Assembly: GCA_029289095.1 (NCBI GenBank)
Contig: JARFUG010000026.1
Span: 1-40,539, forward strand
DNA from: Desulfuromonadales bacterium
GTDB taxonomy: Bacteria; Desulfobacterota; Desulfuromonadia; Desulfuromonadales; JACZKF01
Direction: 5' to 3'
Length of the DNA stretch: 40,539 nucleotides
The translations under genes were made by a program, and so were the position numbers. Below, piece after piece: positions 16,451 to 32,745 of this stretch. Every line of letters begins with the position of its first letter. Position 1 is the first letter of the stretch. The notes beneath the pieces were generated by a model. The model was not told the origin of the DNA. It saw only the letters and a list, made by a program, of their open reading frames with translations, and did no database searches.

Positions 16451-16954
16451 TCAGAAGTTCTCCACAATGCGCACGTAGAGCTCATCCGCCAGTCTCTGTG
16501 AGACCACCTGGATCGCTGCCCGTTCGCTGTCTTCCTGTCGCCCCTTGTCGATGCTGGCGGGGAAGGCTTCCGACCACGACAGCGTCCCCCTCCAGAGAAC
16601 CTTCCCGCCGGGACGCTCCACGGTGGCGTCGATGGTCATGGTGGCGCGGTATTCGAGGATGACATCCCCGCGGCCGAAGGCGACAGGGATGAGCACATAG
16701 TTCGAAACGATTCCGGACAGAAGGGCATCGGCCTTCTCGGGGCGGGAGACCATCGTCAGGGCGCGCCCCCGGGCGAAGCGGTCGGTGGCGGCATTGGTCA
16801 TTTCCATCTCGACGAAAGGTCGGAATGTGGCGTTGGTGAAGTTCCCCACGAAGATCGTCTGTACATCGGAGGGAAGGTTGCTGTGCCGGCCATGGACGCC
16901 GTAACCGCATCCGGCCACAAGGAGCAGGACAAGGGTGATCAGCGGGCGCATCAT
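16451..16954 (-). CDS. lptE: LPS-assembly lipoprotein LptE
   Basis: Outer-membrane lipoprotein that plugs the LptD barrel and helps insert lipopolysaccharide. The 167-residue precursor has a signal peptide with lipobox LVAGC, then the LptE/RlpB fold with the opening [20 protein letters not shown] and the family segment [11 protein letters not shown]. It starts at the ATG ATG pair (16954 or 16951), overlapping the leuS stop by 4 or 1 bases. Its presence shows that the host has an LPS-bearing outer membrane. Confidence 0.9.
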
Positions 16955-19506
16955 GAGACGACGACGTTGACCAGACGACCCGGGACCACGATCACCTTGC
17001 GGACGCTCTTCCCTTCGATGGAGCGCGCAACGTTCCCCTCGGCGAGGGCGGCCGTCTCGATCTGCTCCTGGGTCGCATCGGCGGGCACGACGACCTTTCC
17101 GCGCACCTTGCCGTTGACCTGGACGACAATGGTTTTTTCGTCCTCCACGAGAGCCGCCTCCTCCCACTCCGGCCAGCCGGCCGACTCCACCCCTCCCTCG
17201 TGTCCGAGGCAGGCCCACAGCTCTTCGGAGAAGTGGGGAACGAAGGGGGCGAGAAGACGTACGATCGACTCGAGAGCCTCGCGCAGAACACCGGGATTTT
17301 GCGCCTTGGGCTCGAAGGTGTAGACCGCATTGACGAGTTCCATGACCGCGGCGATGGCGGTGTTGAAGTGGAAGCGCCCGTCGATGTCTTCTGTGACCTT
17401 GCGGATGGTGCGGTGAATCTGGCGCCGAAGGATCCGGGCTTCACCCTGCACATCGACGGAGTCGGCGGCGTCGCGCACCGTCTCGAGATTGTCGTAAACG
17501 GCCCGCCAAACCCGGTTCAGGAAGCGATAGCACCCTTCGACCCCCTGCTCGTTCCACTCGAGGTCTTTCTCCGGAGGGGCTGCAAAGAGGGAGAAAAGTC
17601 TTGCCGTATCGGCACCGTACCTGGCGATGAGGCTGTCGGGATCGACCACGTTCTTCTTCGACTTGCTCATCTTCTCGTTGCGTCCCAGTGACGCCTCGGC
17701 GCCGCACCTGGCGCACTTGCCGTCGACAACCTCTTCGGGATAGAGCCATCCGTGGGTCGGGCAGGAGCGGGTCTCCATGCAGACCATCCCCTGCGTAAGC
17801 AGATTGGTGAACGGCTCGTCGATCCGCATCATCCCCAGGTCGCGCAACACCTTGGTGAAAAAGCGCGCATAGAGCAGATGCATGACGGCGTGCTCGACCC
17901 CGCCGATGTATTGATCGACGGGGAGCCAGTGCTCGACTCTTTCGCGATCGACGGGTCCGAAGGTGAAGTCGGGGCAGGCGTAACGGGCAAAATACCAGGA
18001 ACTCTCGACAAAAGTGTCGAAGGTATCAGTTTCACGCCGGGCCGCTCCGTCGCAGGCGGGGCAGCGCGTCTCGACGAAGGAGGAGCTGGATGCCAGGGGG
18101 TTGCCGGCAGCGCCGGAAAATTCGACATCGGCCGGCAGCACGACGGGCAGGTCCTTTTCGGGGACGGGGACAATGCCGCACCGGTCGCAGTAGATGACGG
18201 GAATCGGCGTTCCCCAGTAACGCTGGCGGGAGACCCCCCAGTCGCGCAGGCGGAAGTTGACGCTCTTGCGGCCGAGCCCTTTTGTTTCGAGAAAATCGGC
18301 GATCTTCTCCTTCGCCGCTTCGTTGTCTAATCCGTCGAACGCCCCGGAGTTGTCCATGAGCCCCGGCCCGGTCCAGGCCTCGGTCATGGTGGCGGCATCG
18401 AGACGCTCTCCGGTGGGCTGGATGACGACCACCAGGGGGAGATCGTATTTGCGGGCGAACTCGAAATCGCGTTGGTCATGGGTGGGAACAGCCATGACGG
18501 CTCCCGTCCCGTACTCCATGAGAACGAAGTTGGCGAGGAAGACGGGCATTCTGCGGCCGGTAACGGGATTGATGCACCAGGCGCCGGTGAAGACCCCTTC
18601 TTTTTCCATCTCGTCGCTGGTGCGGCGGAGCTTGTCGAGTTTTCGGACTCGGGAGATGAATGCCTCAACGGCATCGCGCTGTTCGGGGGAGACCAGTTCC
18701 TGCACCAGAGGATGTTCGGGGGCAAGACTCATGAAGGTCGCGCCGAAGAGCGTATCCTGCCGGGTTGTGAAGACCCGTACTGTGCGATCGGAGTTTTCGA
18801 CGGGGAAATCGATCTCACAGCCGGTGCTGCGCCCGATCCAGTTGCGCTGCATCGTCAGGACCGATTCCGGCCAACCCGGCAGGCGGTACGTTCCGTCGAG
18901 CAGTTCCTGCGCATAGTCGGTGATCTTGAAGAACCACTGCTCGAGTTCCTTGGGCTCGACCTCGCTGTCGCAGCGCCAGCAGCGCCCATCCTCGACCTGC
19001 TCGTTGGCCAGAACCGTCGCGCAGTCGGGACACCAGTTCACCGACGAACTCTTCTTGTAGGCCAGCCCCCGCTCGTACATGCGCAGGAAAATGAGCTGCT
19101 CCCACCGGTAATACTCGACGTCGCAGGTGGCGAACTCCCGATCCCAATCGTAAGACAGACCCATCTTCTTGAGCTGGGCGCGCATGTTGGCGATATTCTC
19201 GTAGGTCCAGCGAGCCGGATGAGTGCCGTGCTGGATGGCGGCGTTCTCGGCGGGCAGCCCGAAGGCGTCCCATCCCATCGGGTGCAGGACGGAATAGCCC
19301 TGCAGGCGCTTGAAACGGGCGATGACATCCCCGATGGAGTAGTTACGCACATGCCCCATGTGGATGCGCCCCGAAGGATAGGGAAACATCTCGAGCAGGT
19401 AGTACTTGGGACGGGGAGAATCGTCGTGCGCCTTGAAAGCGCGCGTCTCCTCCCATCTCTGCTGCCACTTTCTCTCGACGGCGCCGGCATCGTAGCGTTC
19501 TTGCAT
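16951..19506 (-). CDS. leuS: Leucyl-tRNA synthetase
   Basis: Class I synthetase of 851 residues that charges tRNA-Leu. The HMGH form of the HIGH motif is at residues 49-52 and KMSKS follows late in the protein ([10 protein letters not shown]). The CP1 editing domain has [12 protein letters not shown] and [20 protein letters not shown]. Cysteine pairs of a zinc module are visible (CPDC and CWRC before the editing domain, CPAC and CARC later). It overlaps lptE at its end. The 162-base gap to infA shows no leader structure apart from the infA terminator. Confidence 0.98.
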
Positions 19507-19668: not shown

Positions 19669-19887
19669 CTACTTCTCCCTGTAGGTAATCCGCCCGCGGG
19701 TCAAATCGTATGGGGAAAGCTCTACCGTCACGCGATCTCCTGGAAGAATTCGGATATAGAATTTGCGCATCTTTCCGGAGATGTGGGCCAGGACGATGTG
19801 GCCGTTGTCCAGCTTGACCCGGAACATGGCGTTGGGCAGGGGTTCGATGACCGAACCCTCGACTTCGATCGCTTCTTCTTTTGACAA
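19669..19887 (-). CDS. infA: Translation initiation factor IF-1
   Basis: 72-residue OB-fold protein that binds the 30S A site during initiation. It spans the full family length with characteristic segments: [38 protein letters not shown] and [12 protein letters not shown]. The ribosome site AAGGAGG lies ahead of the ATG. It is a single gene with its own promoter and terminator, between the chemosensory operon and leuS. Confidence 0.97.
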
Positions 19888-19937
19888 AGGGAGCCTCCTT
19901 CAGGGTGAAATCTGCTGTCTCCAGAGAAATTGCAGAT

Positions 19938-19967
19938 ATTTAACATAACAGTCCGGGGGATTGTCAA
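19938..19967 (-). promoter_or_regulatory. Candidate promoter of infA
   Basis: Minus-strand -35 TTGACA (19967-19962, perfect), 18-nt spacer, -10 TTAAAT (19943-19938). It lies just downstream of the cheB stop and 50 bases before infA, giving infA expression independent of the chemosensory operon. Confidence 0.55.
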
Positions 19968-19999
19968 CCCTGGAGAGTCATGGCGGGCATTTTCCAATC

Positions 20000-21061
20000 T
20001 CAATGGGGTGTTGCGCCGCAGCGTTTCAGGATTTCGCTGCACATCGACGGCAGCCCAACGACGGCATCGACGACGCCGGTGGCGATCGCTTCCTTGGGCA
20101 TGCCGAAAACGACGCTCGTGTCTTCGGCCTCGGCGAGCACCTCTCCCCCCTTTTCCTTGATGCGGCGCACCCCTGCGGCGCCGTCGCTCCCCATGCCGGT
20201 CAGCACCACCCCGAGAAGACGCGAGCCGTAAACGTTTGCCGCCGACTCGAACATGACATCGACGGAAGGGATGTAGAGCTGCTTCGCAGGGGGGTCGACG
20301 GGATAAACTGCCACTTCTTGCCCCCTTTTTCGAAAGGTGAGGTTCTTTCCCCCGGGCGCCAGAAGAACCCGCCCCGGACGCATGACGTCCCCGCTTTCGG
20401 CTTCGCGGATCTCCAGAGCCGAAAAGCGATTGAGTCGCTCTGCGAATGTTCGGGTGAAGTGGGGAGGCATGTGCTGGGTAACGGCGAACCCGATCGGCAA
20501 CGGGTGCTGTATGGCGGAGAATATCGTTTGAAGGGCCTGGGGTCCTCCGGTTGACGCACCGAGAACGACCTGATCGAATCGAAGATCGGCTGGAACTGCA
20601 GCAGTGGGTGCAGAAGATGTCTCCTTGGCTGATCCGGAAGAGCGCTTCAGGATTTTCCCCATGTCGGTGCGTGAAATTTCCAGGACTTTGCGTTCGAGAT
20701 CTTTGCGGATGTTGAAGAGTTCCGGGGAGATCTTTGCCGAGGGCTTGGCAATGAACTCGACGGCTCCAAAATCGAGCGCTCTGAAGACGTCATCATCGTC
20801 GGAGCGCGCCGAGACGACGATGACCGGCGTGGGCCGGTTTTGCATGATGATGCGCAGGAAGGTGAAGCCGTCCATCCGCGGCATCTCAAGATCGAGGGTG
20901 ACCAGGTCTGGCTGCAGGTCGATGACCTTGCGCAGCCCGTCCTCTCCATTGACGGCATATCCGACGACCTGGACGCCTGGGATCTCTTCGAGCATCTTGA
21001 CGATGGTGCGGCGGTTATAGGCCGAATCATCGATAACCAGAATGCGTATAGCCCTGTTCAT
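20000..21061 (-). CDS. cheB: Chemotaxis protein-glutamate methylesterase CheB
   Basis: Removes methyl groups from (and can deamidate) chemoreceptor glutamates. The 353-residue protein has an N-terminal receiver domain with Asp11, Asp12 and the phospho-acceptor Asp57, then a linker at about 125-160 and the methylesterase domain. The catalytic triad is complete: Ser170 (GASTGGPQA), His197 (QHMPPH) and Asp293 (GMGSDGAAG). Its ATG overlaps the cheR stop (ATGA, 21058-21061). It is the last gene of the chemosensory operon. Its presence with CheR implies adaptation of methylated receptors, although none is encoded here. Confidence 0.96.
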   Translation of the reverse strand: MNRAIRILVIDDSAYNRRTIVKMLEEIPGVQVVGYAVNGEDGLRKVIDLQPDLVTLDLEMPRMDGFTFLRIIMQNRPTPVIVVSARSDDDDVFRALDFGAVEFIAKPSAKISPELFNIRKDLERKVLEISRTDMGKILKRSSGSAKETSSAPTAAVPADLRFDQVVLGASTGGPQALQTIFSAIQHPLPIGFAVTQHMPPHFTRTFAERLNRFSALEIREAESGDVMRPGRVLLAPGGKNLTFRKRGQEVAVYPVDPPAKQLYIPSVDVMFESAANVYGSRLLGVVLTGMGSDGAAGVRRIKEKGGEVLAEAEDTSVVFGMPKEAIATGVVDAVVGLPSMCSEILKRCGATPH

Positions 21062-21933
21062 AAGAACTTCCCGGTGGAAGGGAGCGCGGGGCGCTGGTAA
21101 ACCATGTCGTGAGTGAAATGACGCAGAATGAAGGCATTGCTGATGTTCATGAGCGACTCGGAGTGTCCAAGCAGGAGGAATCCCTCCGGCCTCAACCGCT
21201 GAAAGAAGGTGTCGACGACCCGCTTCTTGGCAGGGATGTCGAAATAGATAATGACGTTTCGGCAGAAAATCGCATCGACGGCGCCCAGAAGACCGACCCG
21301 GGGGACATCGAAGAGGTTGAGGTGACTGATGGTGACCAGATTGCGCACCTCGTCGCAGATTCTGAATTTTCCTTCGGTCTCGGTGAAAAACTTCAACCGG
21401 TAGTCCCGGCTCGTTGCACGAAAAGAGGCTTCACCATAGACCCCTTTTCGTGCGATCTGCAGAACCCGCTGGCTGATGTCGGTGCCGATGATTTCGATGT
21501 CCCACCCCTTGAATGCAGGCATCTCGAGGATAAGCATGGCGATGGTATAGGGCTCTTCTCCGGTGGAGCAGCCAGCACTCCAGATCCGGAGCTTTTTCTT
21601 CCCTTCGGCCTCCTTGAGGGCGCGCATCTCGGGGAGGATTTCCTGTGTGAACGTCTTGAGTTGAAAATCCTCCCGGAAAAAGTATGTCTCGTTGATCGTG
21701 AGGGCGTCGACGACCTCCGAAAGCTCCTGCTCCTTGCTCTTGCCGTACCGAAGCAGGTAATAATAGTCTTTGAAGCTCTTGAGCTGGTAGTGCTGCACAC
21801 GCCTGCCGAGCCGCTTCTGAAGAAGATATTTCGAATTCTCGCAGAAATGCAGGCCGCAGTGCTGGTAGACGTAGTCCCGCAGCAGGCGAAACTCCTCATC
21901 GCTCAGAGGGATATCGGGTGCAAGAAGAAGCAT
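21058..21933 (-). CDS. cheR: Chemotaxis protein methyltransferase CheR
   Basis: SAM-dependent methyltransferase that adds methyl groups to receptor glutamates. The 291-residue protein has the N-terminal helical CheR domain (about 8-60) and the catalytic domain. The latter contains LRIWSAGCSTGEEPYTIAML (SAM motif I), EIIGTDIS, and the late FCRNVIIYFD and LGHSESL motifs. No TPR or C-terminal receptor-tethering extension is seen. It lies 6 bases after the HEAT-repeat gene and overlaps cheB. Confidence 0.96.
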   Translation of the reverse strand: MLLLAPDIPLSDEEFRLLRDYVYQHCGLHFCENSKYLLQKRLGRRVQHYQLKSFKDYYYLLRYGKSKEQELSEVVDALTINETYFFREDFQLKTFTQEILPEMRALKEAEGKKKLRIWSAGCSTGEEPYTIAMLILEMPAFKGWDIEIIGTDISQRVLQIARKGVYGEASFRATSRDYRLKFFTETEGKFRICDEVRNLVTISHLNLFDVPRVGLLGAVDAIFCRNVIIYFDIPAKKRVVDTFFQRLRPEGFLLLGHSESLMNISNAFILRHFTHDMVYQRPALPSTGKFL

Positions 21934-21939
21934 CGGAGT

Positions 21940-23952
21940 TCACCCTCCCGACGCTCTGAGGCCATCAAGGAGTTCACGCAGATGCTGCCGCACAAGATCA
22001 TCGTCCTCCACCTGCAATCTCCCCTCCAGAATGGTGCGACAGCTCGCTCCGACAAGTTCCGACAGAGCGCGGGCGAATGTAATGCGTACATCCCAATGGC
22101 GGTGATTGATCAGATCGCTGCAGACCGAAGGTATCCAGTCTCTATGCCCTGCCTGTACGAGAAGTTTGAGCGCCGCATTGACGACTTCCTCATCGCTGTG
22201 CCGCAGCGCCTGCTCCAGATGACCCTGCGTGTCGCCGGGATCGAATTGCGCCAGTATTTCGAGAGCGGCGATGGTGACAAGTCCTACTGAATCGCACAGC
22301 GCCTCGGCGACGAGTTCCATCGCACCCTTCCCTCCGAACTTGCCCAGGGACCGCACGGCGCAGGTGCGCACCCAGAGGTCTTCGTCGTGCAGGGCCGACT
22401 GGAGCGCCTCGAGAGCCTGCGGGTCGTCGATTTCTCCGAGCAGACAGACGGCTTGCTGACGCACCTCGCTGTCTTCATCGGTCAGGGCCAGTGTGAGGGA
22501 CGGCAGATGACGACGCGCGGCCCGTCCGTCGAGTGAACGAATCGCCGCCTGTCGCACAATCGAGGCCTCGTCCTTCATGGCAAGGGCGATGGCCTGGTCG
22601 ACCTCTTCGGAATCGAGCTCTGAGAGGGCAAGGACAGCCAGGCGGCGCTGTTCGGGAGCCTCGGCATGCAAAAAGGGACGAAGCGCGCTGAATGTCTCCT
22701 GCGGATGGCGCGCGCCCAGAGCGCAAAGGGCGATCTGCGCTGAATCCCGAACCTCGAAGGCGGGATCATCGAGGCGGCGCACAAGTGGTGCGATGGCGCC
22801 GGTTCCTCCGATCGCTCCGAGGGAATGCGCGCTGGCCGAACGCAGTTCCGCATCGGCACTTTCGAGCCCTTCGAACAACAGCCCATCCACGCCCGGACAG
22901 CTACTTCGGCCGAAGACAAACGCGAGGCAGGCGCGGGCCCCCGGGTCCGAATCGTGCCACAGCGAGGCAAGGCTCTGCGGCACGCTGCGCCCGAGATTCA
23001 CAAGCGCCTGGACGGCGATCTCCCTCGTCTCCGGCGTCAGAGTCAGGCTAAGCAGACGCGTCGCGAAACGTCCGTCGGCGCATTCTCCAAGAAGTTTTAC
23101 TGCGGCCTTGCGAACCTCGGGATGAATGCTTTCCAGAAGGGTCGAAAGCGCGAGGGGAGCCGCGCCTCCGGTTGCCTGCGTCAGAATCTTCTTCACCTCT
23201 TCGGGATGGTGCACGCCGATGCGATCGATGGCAAGCGCGGCGGCTTCCCGGACATTGCGCAACGGATCGGCAAGGCCTTCGAGCAGAAGCGGCAGCGCCT
23301 TCACGGCTCCGATATGACCGAGGCAGTCGAACAGCGCTTTTCTCAGGACCTTCTCTTCGTTCAGGGGGAGAAGCGGATCGATGGGAACTTCGGTTCCAAT
23401 GCGGCCGAGTGCGTCGAGAACAACGAAACGGAAGGAAAGATCGGGATCCTTCAGTGCCGCAAGAAGAGGGGCGATAGCCTCCGGGCAACCAATTTTGCCG
23501 AGATTTTCGGCAGCCGCCGAGCGGACGTTCTCATCGGGGTCGCCAAGGGCTTCCACCAGCACGGCGCAGGAGGCGGGGTCGCCTATTTCACCGAGAATAT
23601 CGCAGACGAATTTACGGACATCGTGATCGCGACTGCTGACCTCTTCGACCAGGAGCGGAACCGCTTTGCGGGCGAGGGCAATGAGGATTTCAACGGCGGT
23701 ATTGCGAAGTCCCGCGTTGTCTTCGGAATAGAGCAGTTCGATAATCTCGCCGGCCAGATCGGCCGCCTGCGGGACTGCCAGAAAAAGTTCGGCCGCTTCC
23801 TTTCGGATACGCCAGCTCTCGTCGCCAAGAGCCCAGTAGAGGCTTCTCGGATCGTATTCCTTTCCGCCACTGGAAATAAGGCTGAGAGCCTGGAGCCGTC
23901 GCTCCTCTTCGGTTGAGCTCTTCAGCTCTTCAATCTTCCCCGCATCGGTCAC
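21940..23952 (-). CDS. HEAT-repeat protein of the chemosensory operon
   Basis: 670-residue protein made almost wholly of tandem HEAT/PBS-lyase-type repeats of about 31 residues, roughly 18-20 copies. They show the recurring pattern DxDxxVRxxAAxxLGxIG (for example DENVRSAAAENLGKIG, DSEVRQQAVCLLGEID). No catalytic motif, signal peptide or membrane segment is present, so it should be a soluble curved scaffold. The start is GTG with AGGAGG five bases upstream. It lies between cheW and cheR. HEAT proteins near che genes occur in deltaproteobacteria, but their partner is not established; a role as a protein docking platform is inference. Confidence 0.85.
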   Translation of the reverse strand: MTDAGKIEELKSSTEEERRLQALSLISSGGKEYDPRSLYWALGDESWRIRKEAAELFLAVPQAADLAGEIIELLYSEDNAGLRNTAVEILIALARKAVPLLVEEVSSRDHDVRKFVCDILGEIGDPASCAVLVEALGDPDENVRSAAAENLGKIGCPEAIAPLLAALKDPDLSFRFVVLDALGRIGTEVPIDPLLPLNEEKVLRKALFDCLGHIGAVKALPLLLEGLADPLRNVREAAALAIDRIGVHHPEEVKKILTQATGGAAPLALSTLLESIHPEVRKAAVKLLGECADGRFATRLLSLTLTPETREIAVQALVNLGRSVPQSLASLWHDSDPGARACLAFVFGRSSCPGVDGLLFEGLESADAELRSASAHSLGAIGGTGAIAPLVRRLDDPAFEVRDSAQIALCALGARHPQETFSALRPFLHAEAPEQRRLAVLALSELDSEEVDQAIALAMKDEASIVRQAAIRSLDGRAARRHLPSLTLALTDEDSEVRQQAVCLLGEIDDPQALEALQSALHDEDLWVRTCAVRSLGKFGGKGAMELVAEALCDSVGLVTIAALEILAQFDPGDTQGHLEQALRHSDEEVVNAALKLLVQAGHRDWIPSVCSDLINHRHWDVRITFARALSELVGASCRTILEGRLQVEDDDLVRQHLRELLDGLRASGG

Positions 23953-24101
23953 GAAATCCTCCTGTGCCGCTTCGGATTATTAAAACTGGCACAAATCATC
24001 ATCTCACAAGACATTTCCGTCCGGCAGGGGCGCGGGCACAGCTCGGTCGAGCCTACCTCCCCAAGGGACGGTCGAAAAATCGGCCCAGCAGAAGACCGCA
24101 G

Positions 24102-24629
24102 TCAGGCCAGGGCTTTGCTCTGTTCCGGAAGCAGAATCGCCTCCAGATCGATCTTCTCTTCGGTGGAAAGAATCATCTTGAGATTCAGGAGCAGAATCAG
24201 GTCTTCCTCCCGGCGGCAGACGCCGGAGAAGAAGTCAGCGCCCCTGCCCTTCAGAAACCTGGGGGTAGGCAGAACTTCCTGGCGGGAATAACGCCGTACT
24301 TCGGTCACCTCGTCGACGACAAGGCCGATGATTTTCTTTTCAACCGTGCAGATGATCACCCTGGTCTTGCGGGTGAATTCCGGGTTCTGATCGAATCGCT
24401 TTCGCAGATCGACGACGGGAATGACCGCTCCTCGCAGATTGATGACACCTTCGACGAAGGCGGGAGCCTTGGGGATCGGAGTCATCTTGAGCGGACGGAT
24501 GATCTCCTTGATGCGCATGATGTCGAGCGCATAAAACTCGCTCCCGATGCGAAAGCATGCAAGTTGAATTTCATTGCGCACCGCTTCGGGAGCCCGAAGA
24601 GCCGCGTTGGTTTCGGAGTGAGCTGTCAT
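24102..24629 (-). CDS. cheW: CheW-like coupling protein (short form)
   Basis: 175-residue SH3-like CheW-domain protein that bridges receptors and CheA. Family motifs are visible: QLACFRIGSEFYALDIMRIKEI, VEGVINLRGAVIPVVDLRKRF, IGLVVDEVTEV. A short, slightly acidic N-terminal tail (about 20 residues) precedes the domain. It overlaps the receiver gene by ATGA (24626-24629). A 149-base gap separates it from the HEAT gene, and I see no gene in that gap. Confidence 0.92.
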   Translation of the reverse strand: MTAHSETNAALRAPEAVRNEIQLACFRIGSEFYALDIMRIKEIIRPLKMTPIPKAPAFVEGVINLRGAVIPVVDLRKRFDQNPEFTRKTRVIICTVEKKIIGLVVDEVTEVRRYSRQEVLPTPRFLKGRGADFFSGVCRREEDLILLLNLKMILSTEEKIDLEAILLPEQSKALA

Positions 24630-24997
24630 TTCATCAAAAAGCGCTGGATGGTTTCGATCACCATCGCAGACTTGAAGGGCTTCGTAATATACCAGTCGGC
24701 GCCGACCTTCTCCCCCCGAGCCATGTCTTCTCGGCTCTTTTTGGCGGTCAGCATGATGACCGGGATATGGCGGGTTTCCTGGTTGCTCTTGATGCGACGA
24801 CAGACTTCGAAGCCGTCGATCTCGGGGAGCATGATGTCGAGCAGCACGAGATCGGGATGCTCCTTCGCGATGGCGTCGAGAGCTTCCTGGCCGTTGGGTA
24901 CGCCCTGGACTTCATACCCCTTGGAGGTGAGCAGGATGCTTTCCAGTTTGAGAAGACTTTCCTCATCTTCAACGATCAGAATCTTTTTCTTCGACAC
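24626..24997 (-). CDS. Single-domain response regulator (receiver protein)
   Basis: 123-residue stand-alone receiver. It has the acidic pair around residues 10-12, phospho-acceptor Asp54 (LVLLDIMLPEIDGFE), Thr84 and Lys106 (TKPF). There is no output domain. The sequence is closer to PilH/PleD-type receivers than to the CheY at 28586, so the operon has two distinct phosphate acceptors, one perhaps acting as a phosphate sink. It lies between two cheW genes and is coupled to the downstream one. Confidence 0.92.
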   Translation of the reverse strand: MSKKKILIVEDEESLLKLESILLTSKGYEVQGVPNGQEALDAIAKEHPDLVLLDIMLPEIDGFEVCRRIKSNQETRHIPVIMLTAKKSREDMARGEKVGADWYITKPFKSAMVIETIQRFLMK

Positions 24998-25019
24998 TGA
25001 CCACTCCTTTCTTGGATTG

Positions 25020-25730
25020 TCAGACGAGTTCGGTATTGATGACGCTGGGCAACTGCAGCAGAATCATCATTCTGCCCTGGTGTCTGCCGACCCCCTCCAC
25101 CATCTCGCGGTCGATGCCCGTAAGGACGGCCGGGGGGGGTTCGATCGTCTGCCGTGAAAGCTGCACTACCTGCGAAATATGATCAACCAGCAGGCCCACG
25201 ATTCGATCCTGCACCTGGCAGACGATGATTCTCGAGACTTCGGAAATCTCTACTTTTCCGAGCTTGAGTCGCTGCTTGAGATCGAAGACCGGAATGATGA
25301 TCCCCCTCAGAGAGACGATTCCGAGAATGAAACCAGGAACCCGTGGGATATCTGTGACCTCCCTCGGTTTTATTATCTCGCGAATGAAAGTGATGTCCAG
25401 AGCGTATTCTTCTTTATCCAGGACGAAGGTGAGAAATTTCCTCCCCTCCGTTTCGTCCTTCTCGACATGTCCGGAAACAGCCTGAAGGTACGACTCCTCG
25501 GTAGCCAGATCGAGATCGAGTGGTGAGGCGAAAAGTGCTGTGAAAGGATCCTCAGGATCGAGCGGCACGGAGATGGGTGCGCGCTCCCTCAAATCCTTTT
25601 CCTTTTCCGCAGGTGCGCCCTGGACCTGACGGGTATGACGCGGCTCAGCGCTGCCGGCCTGGAAAGCGGGCCGGTTTCGATCGGTTTCTTTGGAAGAATT
25701 CGCCTTCTTGCGTATGGCAGCCAGATCCAT
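25020..25730 (-). CDS. CheW-domain protein with long N-terminal extension
   Basis: 236-residue protein. Residues 1 to about 95 are charged, low in hydrophobics and rich in Lys, Glu and Pro, so probably disordered. The rest is a CheW domain (FLTFVLDKEEYALDITFIREI, ILGIVSLRGIIIPVFDLKQRL, VGLLVDHISQVVQL). It may couple the kinase to a different receptor class or to the neighbouring ATPase. It starts 14 bases after the ATPase stop. The extension has no domain I recognise. Confidence 0.88.
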   Translation of the reverse strand: MDLAAIRKKANSSKETDRNRPAFQAGSAEPRHTRQVQGAPAEKEKDLRERAPISVPLDPEDPFTALFASPLDLDLATEESYLQAVSGHVEKDETEGRKFLTFVLDKEEYALDITFIREIIKPREVTDIPRVPGFILGIVSLRGIIIPVFDLKQRLKLGKVEISEVSRIIVCQVQDRIVGLLVDHISQVVQLSRQTIEPPPAVLTGIDREMVEGVGRHQGRMMILLQLPSVINTELV

Positions 25731-25744
25731 GGGTCCGTTCCTGA

Positions 25745-26551
25745 TCAGGAGATGAGTTCAAGTTCAGGCATGATCGCCTCGATGATGTCCGCTCCGATGC
25801 GCGAGGCTTCCCTGCCGAATCCCTCCAGCAATGCAAGGGATGCGGCGTGGTTGATCTTGCGAGGGATCCCCCCGGCGTAGCGGTGGATCCTCTCCACTGC
25901 ATCGGGACGAAAGAGGCCGGGAGCGCCACCGACCACTCGCAGGCGGCAATCGAGGTACTCTCCGGTCTCCTCCAGATCGAGGGGGCAAAGGCTGAACTGC
26001 ATTCCGATCCTCTGCCTCAGCGGTTCGTAGACCGGATGGGAGAGACGCTTGCGCAGTTCTGGCTGTCCCATGAGTACGAGGCTCATGAGGTTGCGATCGT
26101 CGAGCTGAAAATTGGTCAGGAGCCTGATCTCATCGAAGGTTTCCTTGTACTGCACGAGTTGGGCCTCATCGATGATCAGCACGGGGCAGATCCCTTGCTC
26201 GAAAAGAGAATACAGGGCCGCGCCGATCTGTTCCAGAAGATCGGCCTTGAGCCGTGCAGGCTCGTCGATCTCCAGACGCAGCGCCACCGCCCGCAGAAAC
26301 TCCAGTGGAGTAAGACGCGGATTGATGAGCAGAAGGACCTTGTAGCGTCCGTCAAGCTCATCCATCAGGCGTCGCGACAGCGTCGTCTTGCCGCAGCCGA
26401 TATCGCCGGTAAGAAGGACCAGATCGCGCTCCTCCACGGCATAAAGCAGACGCGCCAGGGCTTCGCGGTGCATCCGTCCCATATAGAGAAATCGCGGGTC
26501 CGGCGTCTTGCTGAACGGCTTTTCGGTAAAACCGTAAAACGCGTTATACAT
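25745..26551 (-). CDS. ExeA/GspA-like AAA ATPase
   Basis: 268-residue AAA ATPase of the ExeA/MSHA-M family. The family start MYNAFYGFTEKPFSKTPDP is followed by Walker A GDIGCGKTT (49-57) and Walker B VLIIDEA (124-130). A conserved SLVLMGQPELRKRL sensor-like stretch comes next, then the arginine-rich LRQRIGMQF. In type II secretion and pilus systems such proteins act on peptidoglycan passage; related ones (TniB) serve transposition. This copy lacks the C-terminal peptidoglycan-binding domain and membrane segment of ExeA, so it should be cytoplasmic. The ATG at 26551 overlaps the cheA end by 8 bases and has AGGGGGGAG upstream. Its job here is unknown. Confidence 0.87.
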   Translation of the reverse strand: MYNAFYGFTEKPFSKTPDPRFLYMGRMHREALARLLYAVEERDLVLLTGDIGCGKTTLSRRLMDELDGRYKVLLLINPRLTPLEFLRAVALRLEIDEPARLKADLLEQIGAALYSLFEQGICPVLIIDEAQLVQYKETFDEIRLLTNFQLDDRNLMSLVLMGQPELRKRLSHPVYEPLRQRIGMQFSLCPLDLEETGEYLDCRLRVVGGAPGLFRPDAVERIHRYAGGIPRKINHAASLALLEGFGREASRIGADIIEAIMPELELIS

Positions 26552-28574
26552 GAAGCGCCGTCTCCCCCCTGAGCGCCTCACTCATAAGCCCACCGACGTC
26601 GATAACGAGGATCGTCTTGTTGTTGCCGAGATCGGCCGCCCCGGCGATCCCCTTGACGAAAGAGAGCGAGGCGCACAGCGACTTGATCACCACGTCCTGC
26701 TGACCGAGAAGCTCGTCGACGACGATCCCCATCCGTTTTTCCGCAAGGCCGACAACGGCCACGAAAAAAGAGTCCGGCGGCGCGCTGGGAGCCGGAAGAT
26801 CGAAGACCTTGCTCAGATGCACCAGCGGAAGGGTATTCTGTCGCAGGTCGATGACTTCACGCCTCTCGATGGTGCGCACCTTGGACGTATGGACCATAAG
26901 GGTCTCGAGAACGGAGCTGATCGGTATCGCATACGTCTTGGTACGCGAACGGACGATGAGGGCCTTGATGATGGCCAGGGTGATCGGCAGGGTGATGGTG
27001 ATGGAGGTCCCTTGGCCGACCCGGCTGTCCATTTCGACCATCCCCGAGAGTTCGGCGATGTTGCTCTTGACCACATCCATCCCGACTCCGCGTCCTGAAA
27101 GATCGCTCACCTCGTCCCGGGTCGAGAACCCCGGGGAGAAGATGAGATCGAAAATGTCCTGCCGCGACAGATCGATCCCGTCGGAGACGAGTCCGCGCTC
27201 GACAGCTTTGCGCCTGACCTGCTCAGGGTCGATCCCCCGACCGTCATCACGAACTTCGATGGCGACGTTGTTCCCTTTCTGGGCTGCCCAAAGGCTGATC
27301 GTCCCCTTCTCCGGTTTGCCGGCCGCAAGGCGTTCGGCGCTCGACTCGATGCCATGATCGATGGCGTTGCGGATGATGTGCACCAGAGGGTCGGAGAGCC
27401 GCTCCATGATCAGCTTGTCGAGCTCGGTCTCGGCGCCGCGAATATCGATTTCGACCTTCTTTCCGTGTTCGCTCGAGATCCGGCGCACGATGCGGTTGAG
27501 CTTGTCGAAGAGCTGCGAAACGGGGACCATGCGCACTTCCATGACCCCCTTCTGCAGCTCATAGAGGCGTCGCTCGAGGGTGCGGGTCGCTTTCTGCAGG
27601 TCCCGGGAGCGCTCGCTATCCCCTTCGGCCTTCAGCCGGTCGGCAAAGTCGGCGATGGCGCTCTTCGACAGAACGAGTTCACCGACGATGTTCATCAGGT
27701 AGTCGAGCTTTTCGATGTCGACCCGGACCGTCTGGCTGATCGATCGCAGCGAAGAATTTTCGATCGCATCGTTTGCGGCGAATGCCGCCTCTTTCTCGAT
27801 GGGGGCTTCGATTTCAGCAGGAACGATGCAGGCCGCCTTTTCGTGAAGAAGATCCTCGACATCGAGGCTGTCCCCTTTCAGAAGAGACTGGATGGAGTCG
27901 GCCGTTTCGCTCGTGGCGACGAGAAGTTGAAAAGCGATCTTGTCGGGTTCGCTGCTGGCGCTCGGGAGGGTGCTGATGACTTCGGCGCGACCCTTGATGG
28001 CCGCATGCACTCCGGAGAGGTCGACGTCGAAGCTGTGGAGGGGGAAAAGAGCATTGACCCGCAGGATGTTGCGCTTTTTCTTCAGGTTCTCCAGCAGGCG
28101 GTGCTCTTCATATTCGGTAAGGGCCTTTCGGATTTCGGGATCGAGTTGGAGAGCCCCCCAGACGTCCTCGCCTTCGGCGTCGTCGTCCTTGAGGATTTCG
28201 TCGATGCGGGAGAACAAAGGGGCCAGATCGACGGTGAACCGCTCGTTGTCGACCTTCCCGCCTACCAGCCGGCTCAGCATCTCCAGGCCGCCGAAAAGAA
28301 TTTCAACGACAGGCGCATTCAGCGCGATCTTGCCCATTCGCAAACTGTCGAGAAGATTCTCGAGGTGATGAGCCAGTTCGGCGATATCGTCGAAGCCGAA
28401 CATCCCGGAGATCCCCTTAAGGGAATGGGCGCCCCGGAAAATGCCGTTGAGAAGTTCAGGATCGCACTCTCCACCATCTGCACAGTCGCCAAGGGCGACG
28501 AGGTCGAGGTGGAGCTTCTCGATGATCTCTTCAGCCTCCGCCAGGAACTCCTTGCTGGCCCGCTCGTTTGCCAC
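26544..28574 (-). CDS. cheA: Chemotaxis histidine kinase CheA
   Basis: 676-residue receptor-coupled kinase. The P1 phosphotransfer domain has His50 in GAHSLKGISGMFGF. The middle region (about 125-280) does not read as a standard CheY-binding P2. P3 follows (VDIEKLDYLMNIVGELVLSK). The P4 ATPase has DPLVHIIRNAIDHGIES, DDGRGID and DLSGRGVGMDVVK, and the protein ends in P5 (LPLVHL and after). No fused receiver is present. The start is GTG after AGGAGG, which itself overlaps the cheY stop codon (TAGGAGG). It phosphorylates the two local receivers and probably CheB. Confidence 0.96.
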   Translation of the reverse strand: MANERASKEFLAEAEEIIEKLHLDLVALGDCADGGECDPELLNGIFRGAHSLKGISGMFGFDDIAELAHHLENLLDSLRMGKIALNAPVVEILFGGLEMLSRLVGGKVDNERFTVDLAPLFSRIDEILKDDDAEGEDVWGALQLDPEIRKALTEYEEHRLLENLKKKRNILRVNALFPLHSFDVDLSGVHAAIKGRAEVISTLPSASSEPDKIAFQLLVATSETADSIQSLLKGDSLDVEDLLHEKAACIVPAEIEAPIEKEAAFAANDAIENSSLRSISQTVRVDIEKLDYLMNIVGELVLSKSAIADFADRLKAEGDSERSRDLQKATRTLERRLYELQKGVMEVRMVPVSQLFDKLNRIVRRISSEHGKKVEIDIRGAETELDKLIMERLSDPLVHIIRNAIDHGIESSAERLAAGKPEKGTISLWAAQKGNNVAIEVRDDGRGIDPEQVRRKAVERGLVSDGIDLSRQDIFDLIFSPGFSTRDEVSDLSGRGVGMDVVKSNIAELSGMVEMDSRVGQGTSITITLPITLAIIKALIVRSRTKTYAIPISSVLETLMVHTSKVRTIERREVIDLRQNTLPLVHLSKVFDLPAPSAPPDSFFVAVVGLAEKRMGIVVDELLGQQDVVIKSLCASLSFVKGIAGAADLGNNKTILVIDVGGLMSEALRGETALHV

Positions 28575-28585
28575 CTCAGCGCCTC

Positions 28586-28969
28586 CTAGTGAAGATGTTT
28601 CTGGATGAAGGCCCGCAACTTGTCCGGATCGAAGGGCTTGACCAGGTAGTCGTCGGCGCCGAGGGAGAGACCTTTCTGGCGGTCGCGCTCGCTCCCTTCG
28701 GTGCTGACGATCAGCAGCGGAAGATTTTTGTACTGGAGGTTGCTGCGAATGAATCTCACCAGTTCCAACCCGTTGATGTCGGGCATGTTGACATCGGTAA
28801 TGACCATGTCGACTTTTTCCCGCGGAAGAATCCTCAGCGCTTCGAAACCGTTAACGGCCTCGATGACCTCGTAATCTCCGATCGCCGCGATGGTGGCGCA
28901 CAGCAGGGAGCGCATGGTTGGCGAATCGTCAGCAACCAGAATCTTCTTGCACACGTGAGCCTCACTCAA
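28586..28969 (-). CDS. cheY: CheY-like response regulator
   Basis: 127-residue single receiver domain. It has Asp14/Asp15, phospho-acceptor Asp59 (DMVITDVNMPDINGLEL), Thr90 and Lys111 (VKPF). I placed the start at the TTG 28969, because AAAGGAGG lies eight bases before it; a GTG seven codons upstream and a GTG within the next codons are alternatives. It directly precedes cheA and is the likely main output receiver. Without flagellar genes nearby, its target (motor, pilus or enzyme) cannot be told. Confidence 0.92.
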   Translation of the reverse strand: MSEAHVCKKILVADDSPTMRSLLCATIAAIGDYEVIEAVNGFEALRILPREKVDMVITDVNMPDINGLELVRFIRSNLQYKNLPLLIVSTEGSERDRQKGLSLGADDYLVKPFDPDKLRAFIQKHLH

Positions 28970-29017
28970 AATCGGCTCCTCCTTTACCACGACACATACC
29001 TGACATTCCGGCTGAAA

Positions 29018-30139
29018 CTATCGCAGTCCTCCCTGAAGTTTCCGCTCAAGAAGGGCCTTTTCCATCGCCATTCCAGCCTGCGAGAGGAAGATTTCAAGGG
29101 ACTCTGTATCACCGATTTCTTGACCGGCCGGAAAATTGTCTCCGTAGAGAAGTGCAACCGGTTTGCCTTCACTGAGAATAGGTCCGACAAAGACCTCTTC
29201 GGAAACCGCTCCGCCGAGAGCTTCTCGAAAGGAACGGCACCAGCGGGTTTCATCGAGCCGAATCTTCGCCGGCATCCTCTGTTCGAGAACGGCGCAGAAA
29301 GGAGACTCCTCACCGAGCGGAAAACACATCCGTCTCCCTCTCCTTCCGGCCTGGGGGGCTTCAATACCGAACTGACCGATGCCAACGATCTCCTCCTCCT
29401 TGACGAGGAAGACGACAGCACGGTTCATGAATTCACTGGCGAACCGCAGTACGAGCAGAACGATCCCCCCCCCGAGCGAGGGGTTGTGAAGCTCTTGCAG
29501 CATGCTCTTGAGAAGAGGCAGGCCGGCCGATGTATAGGTGTGGGCAGAAGGGTTCGGGCGCCCCTTTTCCTGCAGAACTTCCGAGCCAAGGTCGAGAAGA
29601 GACGCGCCCCCGGCCTGGCTCCCGGAGTCGCTGACGACTTCCGCCTGCGGGTCTCCCTCCCGGAAGAGATCGCGCGGCGAGAGGCCGCGTTCGAGCACTC
29701 CATAGTGCGGTTCGGGATAGGAGGATGAGGGATCGAAATCCTCCTTCACCTCGAAAGCATATCTCCCTTCGGTCCAATCGAAGAAACTTCGGGCGATTTT
29801 CCGCACACGACGCCTGAGAACCGAATCGACGGCAGCGTGCGGCACACCGAAGCGCCGGGAAAGGATTTCGGCCAGACGCGCCGGCTTGGGCATTCGGGCC
29901 TGCACGTCGATAGCGGCCTGAATTGTCTGCTGCGAAGCGATCTCGCTTTGCGCGATGATCTGACTGAACGGCTCGGGATGCTCGCTGGAGAACGCAAGAA
30001 CGATGTCGCCGTGCAGAAATACGACACGCCCTTCCCTTCCGGGCCTCTTGAGAGAGAGGACTCCGGACTTACGGCTCAGGTTGACGATCTGGAAGATGTC
30101 TCCCAGACCGAGATCTTCGAGATTTCCAGTTAAACTCAT
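29018..30139 (-). CDS. PATAN/DUF4388-GAF domain protein
   Basis: 373-residue soluble protein and first gene of the chemosensory operon. Residues 1 to about 150 match the PATAN (DUF4388) domain first seen in cyanobacterial PatA (SLTGNLEDLGLGDIFQIVNLSRKSGVLSL, VVFLHGDIVLAFSS). A linker follows, and residues about 190-370 look like a GAF domain (GGGIVLLVLRFASEFMNRAVVFLVKEEEIVGIGQFG, then VGPILSEGKPVALLYGDN). PATAN proteins take part in two-component and gliding/pilus signalling in several phyla, and GAF may bind a small ligand. It could be the soluble sensor or an output adaptor. No receiver or kinase part is present. Confidence 0.82.
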   Translation of the reverse strand: MSLTGNLEDLGLGDIFQIVNLSRKSGVLSLKRPGREGRVVFLHGDIVLAFSSEHPEPFSQIIAQSEIASQQTIQAAIDVQARMPKPARLAEILSRRFGVPHAAVDSVLRRRVRKIARSFFDWTEGRYAFEVKEDFDPSSSYPEPHYGVLERGLSPRDLFREGDPQAEVVSDSGSQAGGASLLDLGSEVLQEKGRPNPSAHTYTSAGLPLLKSMLQELHNPSLGGGIVLLVLRFASEFMNRAVVFLVKEEEIVGIGQFGIEAPQAGRRGRRMCFPLGEESPFCAVLEQRMPAKIRLDETRWCRSFREALGGAVSEEVFVGPILSEGKPVALLYGDNFPAGQEIGDTESLEIFLSQAGMAMEKALLERKLQGGLR

Positions 30140-30249: not shown

Positions 30250-30335
30250 GCGCTGAACGGGCTCAACGACAGGAACGCTTTGGCAATCAACCCGGGCGGC
30301 GAAGGGGCGCTCCCCGGGTGTCTGGCGTTCAGCGC
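30250..30335. repeat. Nested inverted repeat at the 3' end of der
   Basis: The outer arms GCGCTGAACG (30250-30259) and CGTTCAGCGC (30326-30335) are perfect. Inside, ACCCGGG (30290-30296) pairs with CCCGGGT (30313-30319). The right outer arm covers the last codons of der. There is no T-run, so it is not a classical terminator, but it may protect or stall the der transcript before the chemosensory operon. Confidence 0.5.
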
Positions 30336-31639
30336 TCCCGATCTCTGAACTGGAGGCGGATGGGTGTGCCGGAGAAACCGAAAACCTCACGAATCTTGTT
30401 GGTGAGATAGCGCTCGTAGGAGAAGTGAATCCCTTCGGCGCGGTTGACGAATACCACGAAAGTCGGAGGGCGCACCGCCGTCTGGGTGGCATAGAAGAGT
30501 TTGATGCGCTTGCCCTGGAAGACCGCCGGCGGGTGGGTCCTCTCCGCATCGGCAAGGACCTGGTTCAGGGCCGATGTCGGCACCTTCCTGTTGAACTCGA
30601 CCGCAACCTTCTCCACTTCCCCCATGATGCTGGAGACTCTCTGTCCGGTCAAGGCCGACACAAAAACGATTGGGGCATAGGGTATGAACTTGAAGCTCTC
30701 CCGGAGACGTTTGACGTACTCCCCCATGGTGGAGTTGTCCTTGACGACCTGGTCCCACTTGTTGACGACCAGAATGACGGCGCGTCCCTTCTCGACGGCG
30801 TAGCCTGCAATGGTCAGATCCTGCTCCGTGATCCCCTCGTCGGCGTCGATGACGATGAGGGCGATATGTGCCCGCTCCATCGACTTGAGAGCCTGGATAA
30901 CCGAGAACTTCTCGAGCTTCTGACTCACCTTCCCCTTGCGGCGGATGCCGGCGGTATCGATGAGAAGATAGCGTTTCTGGTTGTAGGCGAACGGCGTATC
31001 GACGCTGTCGCGGGTCGTTCCCGCCTGAGGGTTGGCAACCACGCGCTCAAAACCGAGGAGGCGATTGACGAGCGATGACTTGCCGACATTGGGGCGACCG
31101 ATGACGGCCAGGCGGGTCGTCCCTTCCTGAGCATCGCTTTTTTCGGCGGGAGGCAGAAGAGCCGTAACCTCATCCATCAGTTCGTGGATGCCGCGACCAT
31201 GTTCGGCAGAGACGGTGATGAGATGCTCGATGCCGAGAGAGTAGAACTCGACCGCGGCTTCCTCCTGGCGATCCCCGTCGATTTTGTTGACAACGTAGAG
31301 AACCGGCTTCTTCACCTTTCGCAGCATGGTGGCGACTTCCATATCGGACGGGGTGAGCCCGTCCCTGCCGTCCATCACGAAGAGGATGATGTCGGCCTCT
31401 TCGATGGCGAGTTGGGACTGCTCGCGCATCTGCACCAGGAGACTGTTCTCGCTGGCAGGCTCGAAACCTCCGGTATCGATCAGCATGAAAGGAGGGCCGA
31501 AGCGGGTGACCTCGGCGTAGTTGCGATCCCGCGTAACACCGGGGAAATCCTCCACGAGCGCCTTGCGCTGTCCGAGGATACGATTGAAGAGGGTCGATTT
31601 GCCGACATTTGGCCGGCCGACGATGGCGACGATTTTCAT
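30329..31639 (-). CDS. der: Ribosome biogenesis GTPase Der (EngA)
   Basis: Essential double-GTPase that matures the 50S subunit. The 436-residue protein has two G domains, each with a P-loop GRPNVGKS (residues 8-15 and again near 185) and NKxD motifs (VVNKID, VVNKWD). The C-terminal KH-like domain ends at [12 protein letters not shown]-type sequence (SGTPIRLQF). No clear ribosome site precedes the ATG. It lies downstream of era with a 206-base gap containing an inverted-repeat element. Confidence 0.97.
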
Positions 31640-31845: not shown

Positions 31846-32745
31846 TCAGTCGTAGCCGAATTCCCGAAGGAGGCGCTGCGATTCGGTCCAGTTGCGATCC
31901 ACCCGCACGAAGAGCTCCAGAAAAACGCGGCAGCCAAGGAGCTTCTCGATGTCGCTTCGAGCGCGTCGGCCGATGTCGCGAATCATGGCCCCTGCCTTTC
32001 CGACGACGATTCTCTTGTGCGTCTCGCGTTCGACATGAATGACGGCATGAATGACGACAAGATTGTTCGGCTTCTCCTCGAAGCTCTCCACTGTAACGGC
32101 AACGCCGTAGGGGATCTCTTCATGCGTCTGACGCAGCACCTGCTCCCTGACCATTTCGGCGACTATGAAGCGCTCAGGCTGGTCGGTAATCATATCTTCG
32201 GGATAGTACGGCGGCCCTTCGGGGAGCATCTCGCGCACAGCCCCGACGAGAATGTCGACACCTTCGCCGTTCAGGGCGCATATGGGAACGATCTGCCGGA
32301 ATGCGTGCCTCTTCGCCCATGAGTCAATGAGGGGAAGGAGCGCGGGTTTGGCCACTCTGTCGATCTTGTTGAGAACGAGGATGACGGGAGCACGCCCCTG
32401 AGCCAGAACCTTGAGGACGAAGTCGTCGCCTTCGGCCGTCGCAGAGGCGGCATCCACAAGAAAGAGGACGACATCGACGTCGGAACAGGCAGAGAGGGCC
32501 TGGTCGACCATGAACTTGTTGAGGCGACCGCGGGGCGGGTGAATTCCCGGGGTGTCGAGAAAAAGAATCTGCGCATCGGCACTGGTGCGAATGCCGAGAA
32601 TTCGATTTCGCGTCGTCTGCGCCTTGGGCGAAGTGATGGCGATCTTCTCCCCCAGAATGGCATTGAGGAGAGTCGACTTCCCGACGTTGGGGCGTCCGAC
32701 GATGGCGACGAAGCCGGAGCGAAATGCTTCTTGAGGAGTTTCCAC
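31846..32745 (-). CDS. era: GTPase Era
   Basis: 16S rRNA-binding GTPase of 299 residues needed for 30S assembly. The G domain has P-loop GRPNVGKST (about 17-25), DTPGIHPP and NKID. The C-terminal type II KH domain contains IVVGKAGAMIRDIGRRARSDIEK. The start is GTG with a weak ribosome site. It follows the radical SAM gene by 42 bases and belongs to the rnc-radical SAM-era-der group on the minus strand. Confidence 0.97.
   Translation of the reverse strand: METPQEAFRSGFVAIVGRPNVGKSTLLNAILGEKIAITSPKAQTTRNRILGIRTSADAQILFLDTPGIHPPRGRLNKFMVDQALSACSDVDVVLFLVDAASATAEGDDFVLKVLAQGRAPVILVLNKIDRVAKPALLPLIDSWAKRHAFRQIVPICALNGEGVDILVGAVREMLPEGPPYYPEDMITDQPERFIVAEMVREQVLRQTHEEIPYGVAVTVESFEEKPNNLVVIHAVIHVERETHKRIVVGKAGAMIRDIGRRARSDIEKLLGCRVFLELFVRVDRNWTESQRLLREFGYD

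Follow-up and report, generated by a model that had tools for sequence, protein, structure and literature searches.

A chemosensory operon without receptor genes in a Desulfuromonadales bacterium is a probable beta-group/Esn system with receptors encoded in trans

How does a chemosensory operon that encodes both CheR and CheB operate when it contains no receptor? The question is raised by a ten-gene operon in an uncultured Desulfuromonadales bacterium (GenBank assembly GCA_029289095.1, contig JARFUG010000026.1, positions 1 to 40,539; this whole stretch of 40,539 nucleotides is referred to as the window). The operon runs on the minus strand from position 30139 to 20000 and encodes, in order, a PATAN-GAF protein, CheY, CheA, an AAA+ ATPase, an extended CheW, a receiver protein, a second CheW, a HEAT-repeat protein, CheR and CheB. 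Pfam searches with each gene bear out this content, order and single strand, which had been reported in an initial annotation made from the sequence alone, and no methyl-accepting chemotaxis protein (MCP), CheC, CheD or CheZ is encoded inside the operon, again as described there. We conclude that the operon is very probably the Desulfuromonadales form of the deltaproteobacterial beta-group/Esn chemosensory system, with receptors in trans and a non-flagellar output. This kind of operon has already been described and matching MCPs are encoded elsewhere, so the receptorless operon is not an isolated oddity; what is new here is the host and the identification of the receptors.

Beta-group che clusters comprise cheA, cheW, cheB and cheR without an mcp gene and are conserved across the deltaproteobacteria; cluster 5 of Geobacter sulfurreducens falls in this group, and its knockouts had preliminary effects on the extracellular matrix (Tran et al. 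2008, PMC2577667). The window has the same four genes and no mcp in the cluster, in a gene order that recurs in deltaproteobacteria, other families of the class among them. In G. sulfurreducens, transposon sequencing (Tn-Seq) showed that growth on electrodes requires GSU2220 (CheW, esnB), GSU2221 (an ATPase, in which insertions lower electrode growth) and GSU2222 (CheA, esnC) (Chan 2017, PMC5585712). According to the same study, electrode growth also requires the diguanylate cyclase EsnD and EsnA (GSU1704), an MCP that has its GAF domain in the cytoplasm, lacks a periplasmic domain and is encoded away from GSU2220-2222; EsnA associates with EsnB and EsnC in two-hybrid assays, and esn deletion mutants still reduce Fe(III) oxide normally. 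EsnD produces cyclic di-GMP (c-di-GMP) and counteracts the cGAMP pathway. The CheA-ATPase-CheW order of the window is that of GSU2222-2221-2220, and a GAF-MCP without a periplasmic domain is encoded elsewhere in the genome, on contig C68.

A CheA search of the named genome collection returned 80 loci, the best-scoring of which are mostly metagenome-assembled genomes of Desulfuromonadales. When annotated with the window proteins, almost all Desulfuromonadales loci that were long enough carry era-der-PATAN-cheY-cheA-ATPase-cheW-RR-cheW-HEAT-cheR-cheB-leuS (RR, response regulator). The block era-der-[operon]-infA-leuS is kept across the order, the operon and its era-der flank are kept in Geobacterales-type relatives, and the same operon occurs in eleven more regions, of which nine come from other orders within the class. 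Given that the order is kept in dozens of genomes, a chance grouping of ten genes is excluded. Among 67 loci spanning cheA to cheB, the HEAT gene is present in 65 and the ATPase gene in 47, the latter missing mainly from Myxococcota-type loci (for example Nannocystis and Sorangium). Both seemingly uncommon members are therefore constitutive parts of this cluster type, HEAT most widely. The initial annotation had called them non-standard chemotaxis parts, which does not hold for this cluster type, and had offered their absence from orthologous clusters as grounds for rejecting its reading; both genes are conserved there.

The genome encodes 13 MCPs, named here by contig. Four of them (C7, C13, C68 and C11) have the tip NAAIIAA[Q/K]AG in common (that is, NAAIIAAQAG or NAAIIAAKAG), and this set has no kinase of its own. 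MCP classes were assigned from the distance between HAMP and tip, calibrated on Tsr (36H, 144 residues); C7 and C13 have an arm of 242 residues, 98 above Tsr, which is 64H length. In eight distant clusters (L090, L092, L095, L096, L097, L101, L109 and L115) an MCP gene lies between cheW and HEAT. The arm of these in-cluster receptors is exactly 242 residues in all eight, equal to that of C7 and C13, and their tips read NAAIIAAQAG (n=4), NAAIIASQSG (n=3) or NATILAAQAG (n=1).

Receptor tip and operon also occur together across the order. With cluster presence scored as ATPase E<=1e-98 or CheA E<=1e-140, the tip motif was found in 74 of 76 genomes with the cluster and in 3 of 60 without it; the P values for this association treat the genomes as independent, which they are not. 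The three motif-bearing cluster-negative genomes are only 59-80% complete; at completeness of at least 90% the motif is present in 52/53 cluster-positive and 0/35 cluster-negative genomes. Cluster absence recurs in at least four families, and the motif is absent from each. The gene-order search in other deltaproteobacteria that the initial annotation had proposed thus recovers the same order, and the co-occurring MCPs are those of the NAAIIAA[Q/K]AG set.

The C68 MCP, which has no HAMP domain, carries a GAF domain (Pfam E=4e-12) that matches the solved GAF domain of PDB 3oov at E=2e-49; the best identity to the latter among the genomes compared is 79%. An EsnA-like GAF is found in 64/76 genomes with the cluster and 2/60 without it, usually one per genome, and the GAF-to-tip arm of EsnA-like MCPs is constant at 197 residues in every example measured. 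The C68 GAF-MCP is the probable counterpart of EsnA. Tip, arm length and co-occurrence pair this predicted receptor set with the window CheA; the receptor for the operon is not missing, given that candidate MCPs that match it are encoded in trans.

What might such an array control? FlhA (FHIPEP) and FliG (FliG_C) had no match in the genome, and flagellar control is therefore excluded here; PilT- and PilB-type pilus motor ATPases are present. The earlier proposal of a chemosensory array that controls something other than swimming is thus well supported, also by the lack of FlhA in more than half of the cluster-positive relatives. By analogy, control of surface behavior, pili, matrix or c-di-GMP is the likely output, and the Geobacter phenotype points to a surface or electrode lifestyle via c-di-GMP and matrix.

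The alternative that survives best is direct control of type IV pili (Tfp), and so of twitching, by a counterpart of the Pil-Chp and Tax systems, in which the PATAN protein would act on PilB and c-di-GMP would be secondary. We consider this possible, though unlikely. In the Tax systems of Synechocystis the PilB motor is a binding partner of PATAN domains, which makes a pilus branch of the output plausible by analogy; the pilus motor ATPases are present where FlhA and FliG are absent, and PATAN is the first operon gene in almost all Desulfuromonadia relatives. However, the multi-Hpt CheA located with pil genes that marks the Tfp/Pil-Chp class is not seen: the window CheA (26544..28574; Hpt, dimerisation, HATPase and CheW domains in Pfam, with the HSLKG phosphosite and ATPase boxes intact, and no receiver) has one Hpt match, unlike ChpA/PilL, and no pil gene lies in the conserved neighborhood. 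Furthermore, PATAN was undetected in Myxococcota clusters, the Geobacter phenotype is one of electrode colonisation, and the window PATAN protein has no REC domain.

This PATAN protein (29018..30139, 373 amino acids) matches DUF4388/PATAN at E=6e-19, and its GAF half has no Pfam match at E<10. We accept the GAF assignment because relatives match GAF_2 and because the AlphaFold model resembles GAF domains of known structure (prob 1.00). In the alignment most relatives are PATAN-REC-GAF proteins, and the receiver between PATAN and GAF has been lost from the window protein. Repeated loss is suggested, and phosphorylation control may therefore have passed from the PATAN protein to the stand-alone CheY or receiver proteins. 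PATAN proteins that lack the receiver were also seen in L051, L053, L064, L094, L083, L084, L076 and L077.

For the ATPase (25745..26551, 268 amino acids) we favor a start at ATG 26551, which overlaps cheA by 8 bp, since nearly all relatives begin with M/VYxxFYG or similar; GTG at 26581 is less likely. The protein belongs to the ExeA/AAA_22 group (Pfam AAA_22, 2e-22) and its Walker motifs are intact (GDIGCGKT and IIDEAQ). The XrtA/PEP-CTERM-associated ATPase family TIGR03015 was ruled out (223.1 bits versus a curated cut-off of 324.5), and a sequence search of PDB gave weak P-loop matches only. The structural model (pLDDT, the predicted local distance difference test, 93.8) has a MuB/TnsC/ORC-type fold, with MuB, Cdc6/Orc1 and TnsC as top matches. 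Filament formation on DNA is known for some ATPases with this fold and is seen among the MuB and TnsC structure entries that the model matched; that the protein helps to assemble the array or tethers it to the nucleoid is a guess. A bolder reading, to which we give little credence, holds that beta/Esn systems are a distinct class with receptors of 64H length, in which the MuB/ORC-type ATPase drives array assembly or nucleoid tethering and the HEAT protein is an adaptor. If true, this would be an ATP-powered mechanism for positioning a chemosensory array, of a kind that, to our knowledge, is known in no chemosensory system.

The HEAT-repeat protein (21940..23952, 670 amino acids; HEAT_2 E=6e-82) is a long alpha-solenoid that matches designed alphaRep proteins. 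In the Che7 system of Myxococcus xanthus, the HEAT-repeat protein Cpc7 binds CheY7, as summarized in a review (PMC11514114, citing Darnell 2014). A literature search on HEAT proteins in deltaproteobacterial chemosensory systems found nothing. Two electrode-evolved Geobacter strains carry mutations in KN400_2162, which encodes a HEAT-like repeat protein (PMC13194489) and could be the beta-cluster HEAT gene.

It is very improbable that the window kinase has no MCP class of its own and is shared by the 34H, 40H and 44H receptors of the genome, even though the operon contains no receptor gene. Five MCPs are 34H-like (two measured directly at 137 residues, three via alignment gaps), C69 is 40H-like and C26 and C90 are 44H-like by HAMP-to-tip distance, and each of these sets sits with its own CheA, the 34H kinase genes being cut by contig ends. 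The small atypical MCP C32, given no class, is the exception outside the sets with their own CheA. Sharing is thus rejected, and what is left is one receptorless kinase and one kinaseless receptor set, the NAAIIAA[Q/K]AG set, which lacks any other kinase and occurs together with the window-type cluster. At least four further chemosensory systems are present in this genome without FlhA or FliG: those on C26 (44H), C90 (44H), C69 (Wsp-like 40H) and C71/C12/C45 (34H, with xFERF/Y C-terminal pentapeptides). The ACF/Wsp class was ruled out for the window operon, in which CheA has no C-terminal REC and no GGDEF gene is present; the Wsp-like set of the genome is the one on C69.

A flagellar chemotaxis system has next to no chance of being the right reading, because the full CheA/W/Y/R/B set and the presence of FlhA in many relatives are set against a genome in which the lack of FHIPEP and FliG_C rules out the flagellar classes (barring a flagellum built without either protein), against the absence of FlhA from 29/53 cluster-positive versus 2/35 cluster-negative genomes (at least 90% complete), and against the finding of Tran et al. 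(PMC2577667) that the che clusters of Geobacter all lie away from the flagellar clusters. Given these counts, flagellar control is not the general role of the system either. The relation is inverse across the order, FlhA being found in nearly all cluster-negative genomes and absent from many cluster-positive ones.

Several points weigh against a beta-group/Esn system with receptors in trans. G047, a complete cluster-positive genome, has no tip match, and Esn receptors carry the published annotation class 40H, whereas the arm length measured on C7 and C13 is that of 64H. Two clusters inside the synteny of the order, L094 and L189, are otherwise intact and have no ATPase gene between cheA and cheW; the ATPase is therefore not indispensable and its gene can be lost. 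The window PATAN regulator is not an ordinary CheA target, since it lacks the receiver of most relatives. Orthology to GSU2220-2222 was assigned by gene order and annotation, not direct alignment, G. sulfurreducens apparently lying outside the genomes compared, and the output was assigned by analogy only.

The remaining operon genes also lie on the minus strand. CheY (28586..28990) is a single receiver domain (PF00072 E=4e-28), as is the second response regulator (24626..24997, PF00072 E=3e-30). The first CheW (25020..25730; PF01584 E=6e-35, residues 98-233) has an N-terminal extension of ~95 residues and takes the position of EsnB (GSU2220); the second CheW (24102..24629) matches PF01584 at E=5e-37. 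CheR (21058..21933; PF01739 E=1e-55) and CheB (20000..21061; PF01339 E=8e-61, with a PF00072 receiver and an intact GASTGGP motif) complete the set. Most junctions are ATGA overlaps or short gaps, as annotated; the exception is cheW-HEAT, where the junction check gives a gap of 149 bp (23953..24101). In relatives this place is taken by an MCP gene or by a zinc-ribbon-REC gene; the latter, seen in Geobacterales-type relatives and in some of the Desulfuromonadales ones, is missing from the window.

Outside the system, infA (19669..19887, minus strand; IF-1, identified by eye from its translation) lies between cheB and leuS and marks the syntenic insertion point. According to the gene list and the synteny of relatives, leuS (16951..19506, minus strand) is the downstream flank and the der GTPase gene (30329..31639, minus strand) the upstream flank, with era beyond it (31846-32745). 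Between cheB and leuS most relatives carry a further CheY-like gene (motif SPTMRQLIVFAL), which is missing from the window (19669-20000).

Very probably, the receptors C68 (EsnA-like GAF-MCP), C7 and C13 (64H length) and C11 form an array with the window CheA and both CheWs, and CheR and CheB would adjust these receptors in trans. We infer that phosphorylated CheA hands its phosphate to CheY, the second receiver and CheB. By analogy with Geobacter, the output would commit cells to growth on surfaces or electrodes or in biofilms via a diguanylate cyclase and matrix genes. Given the binding of PATAN domains to PilB in Synechocystis, a further target of the PATAN-GAF protein may be the type IV pilus motor. 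The HEAT protein probably docks a receiver, as Cpc7 does CheY7, and the ATPase probably serves to assemble or position the array.

Naming the receptors resolves the apparent paradox of CheR and CheB without a receptor, and the tip motif NAAIIAA[Q/K]AG locates such receptors in any genome. The system is kept in lineages without FlhA and absent from many with FlhA, and this speaks against a flagellar role in the order as a whole. The ATPase, HEAT and PATAN-GAF proteins and EsnA are testable partners for the poorly understood switch of electroactive bacteria to surface or electrode growth.

Among known systems, TIGR03015 and ExeA/GspA share the AAA_22 ATPase group with the window protein, which differs in being an ATPase domain alone, encoded in a che operon. 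Cpc7-CheY7, as presented in the review mentioned above, similarly ties a HEAT-repeat protein to a chemosensory single-domain response regulator; Che7 is another cluster, and the likeness is one of kind. The Synechocystis Tax systems (with the PATAN response regulators PixG, PilG and TaxP2) also have a PATAN-domain protein in a chemosensory system, whereas in the window protein GAF takes the place of REC, and the CheA and receptor types differ. Compared with EsnABCD (PMC5585712), the host is uncultured and lacks FlhA and FliG, and an Esn-like function in it is predicted; the CheA-ATPase-CheW adjacency and a GAF-MCP without a periplasmic domain encoded elsewhere are common to both. Beta-group relatives differ in the extra CheY that many have after cheB, in the zinc-ribbon-REC gene and in a PATAN protein with a receiver, but the window shares with Geobacter beta-group cluster 5 (PMC2577667) CheA, the CheWs, CheR and CheB, a cluster without mcp that is not close to flagellar genes, and conservation across the deltaproteobacteria.

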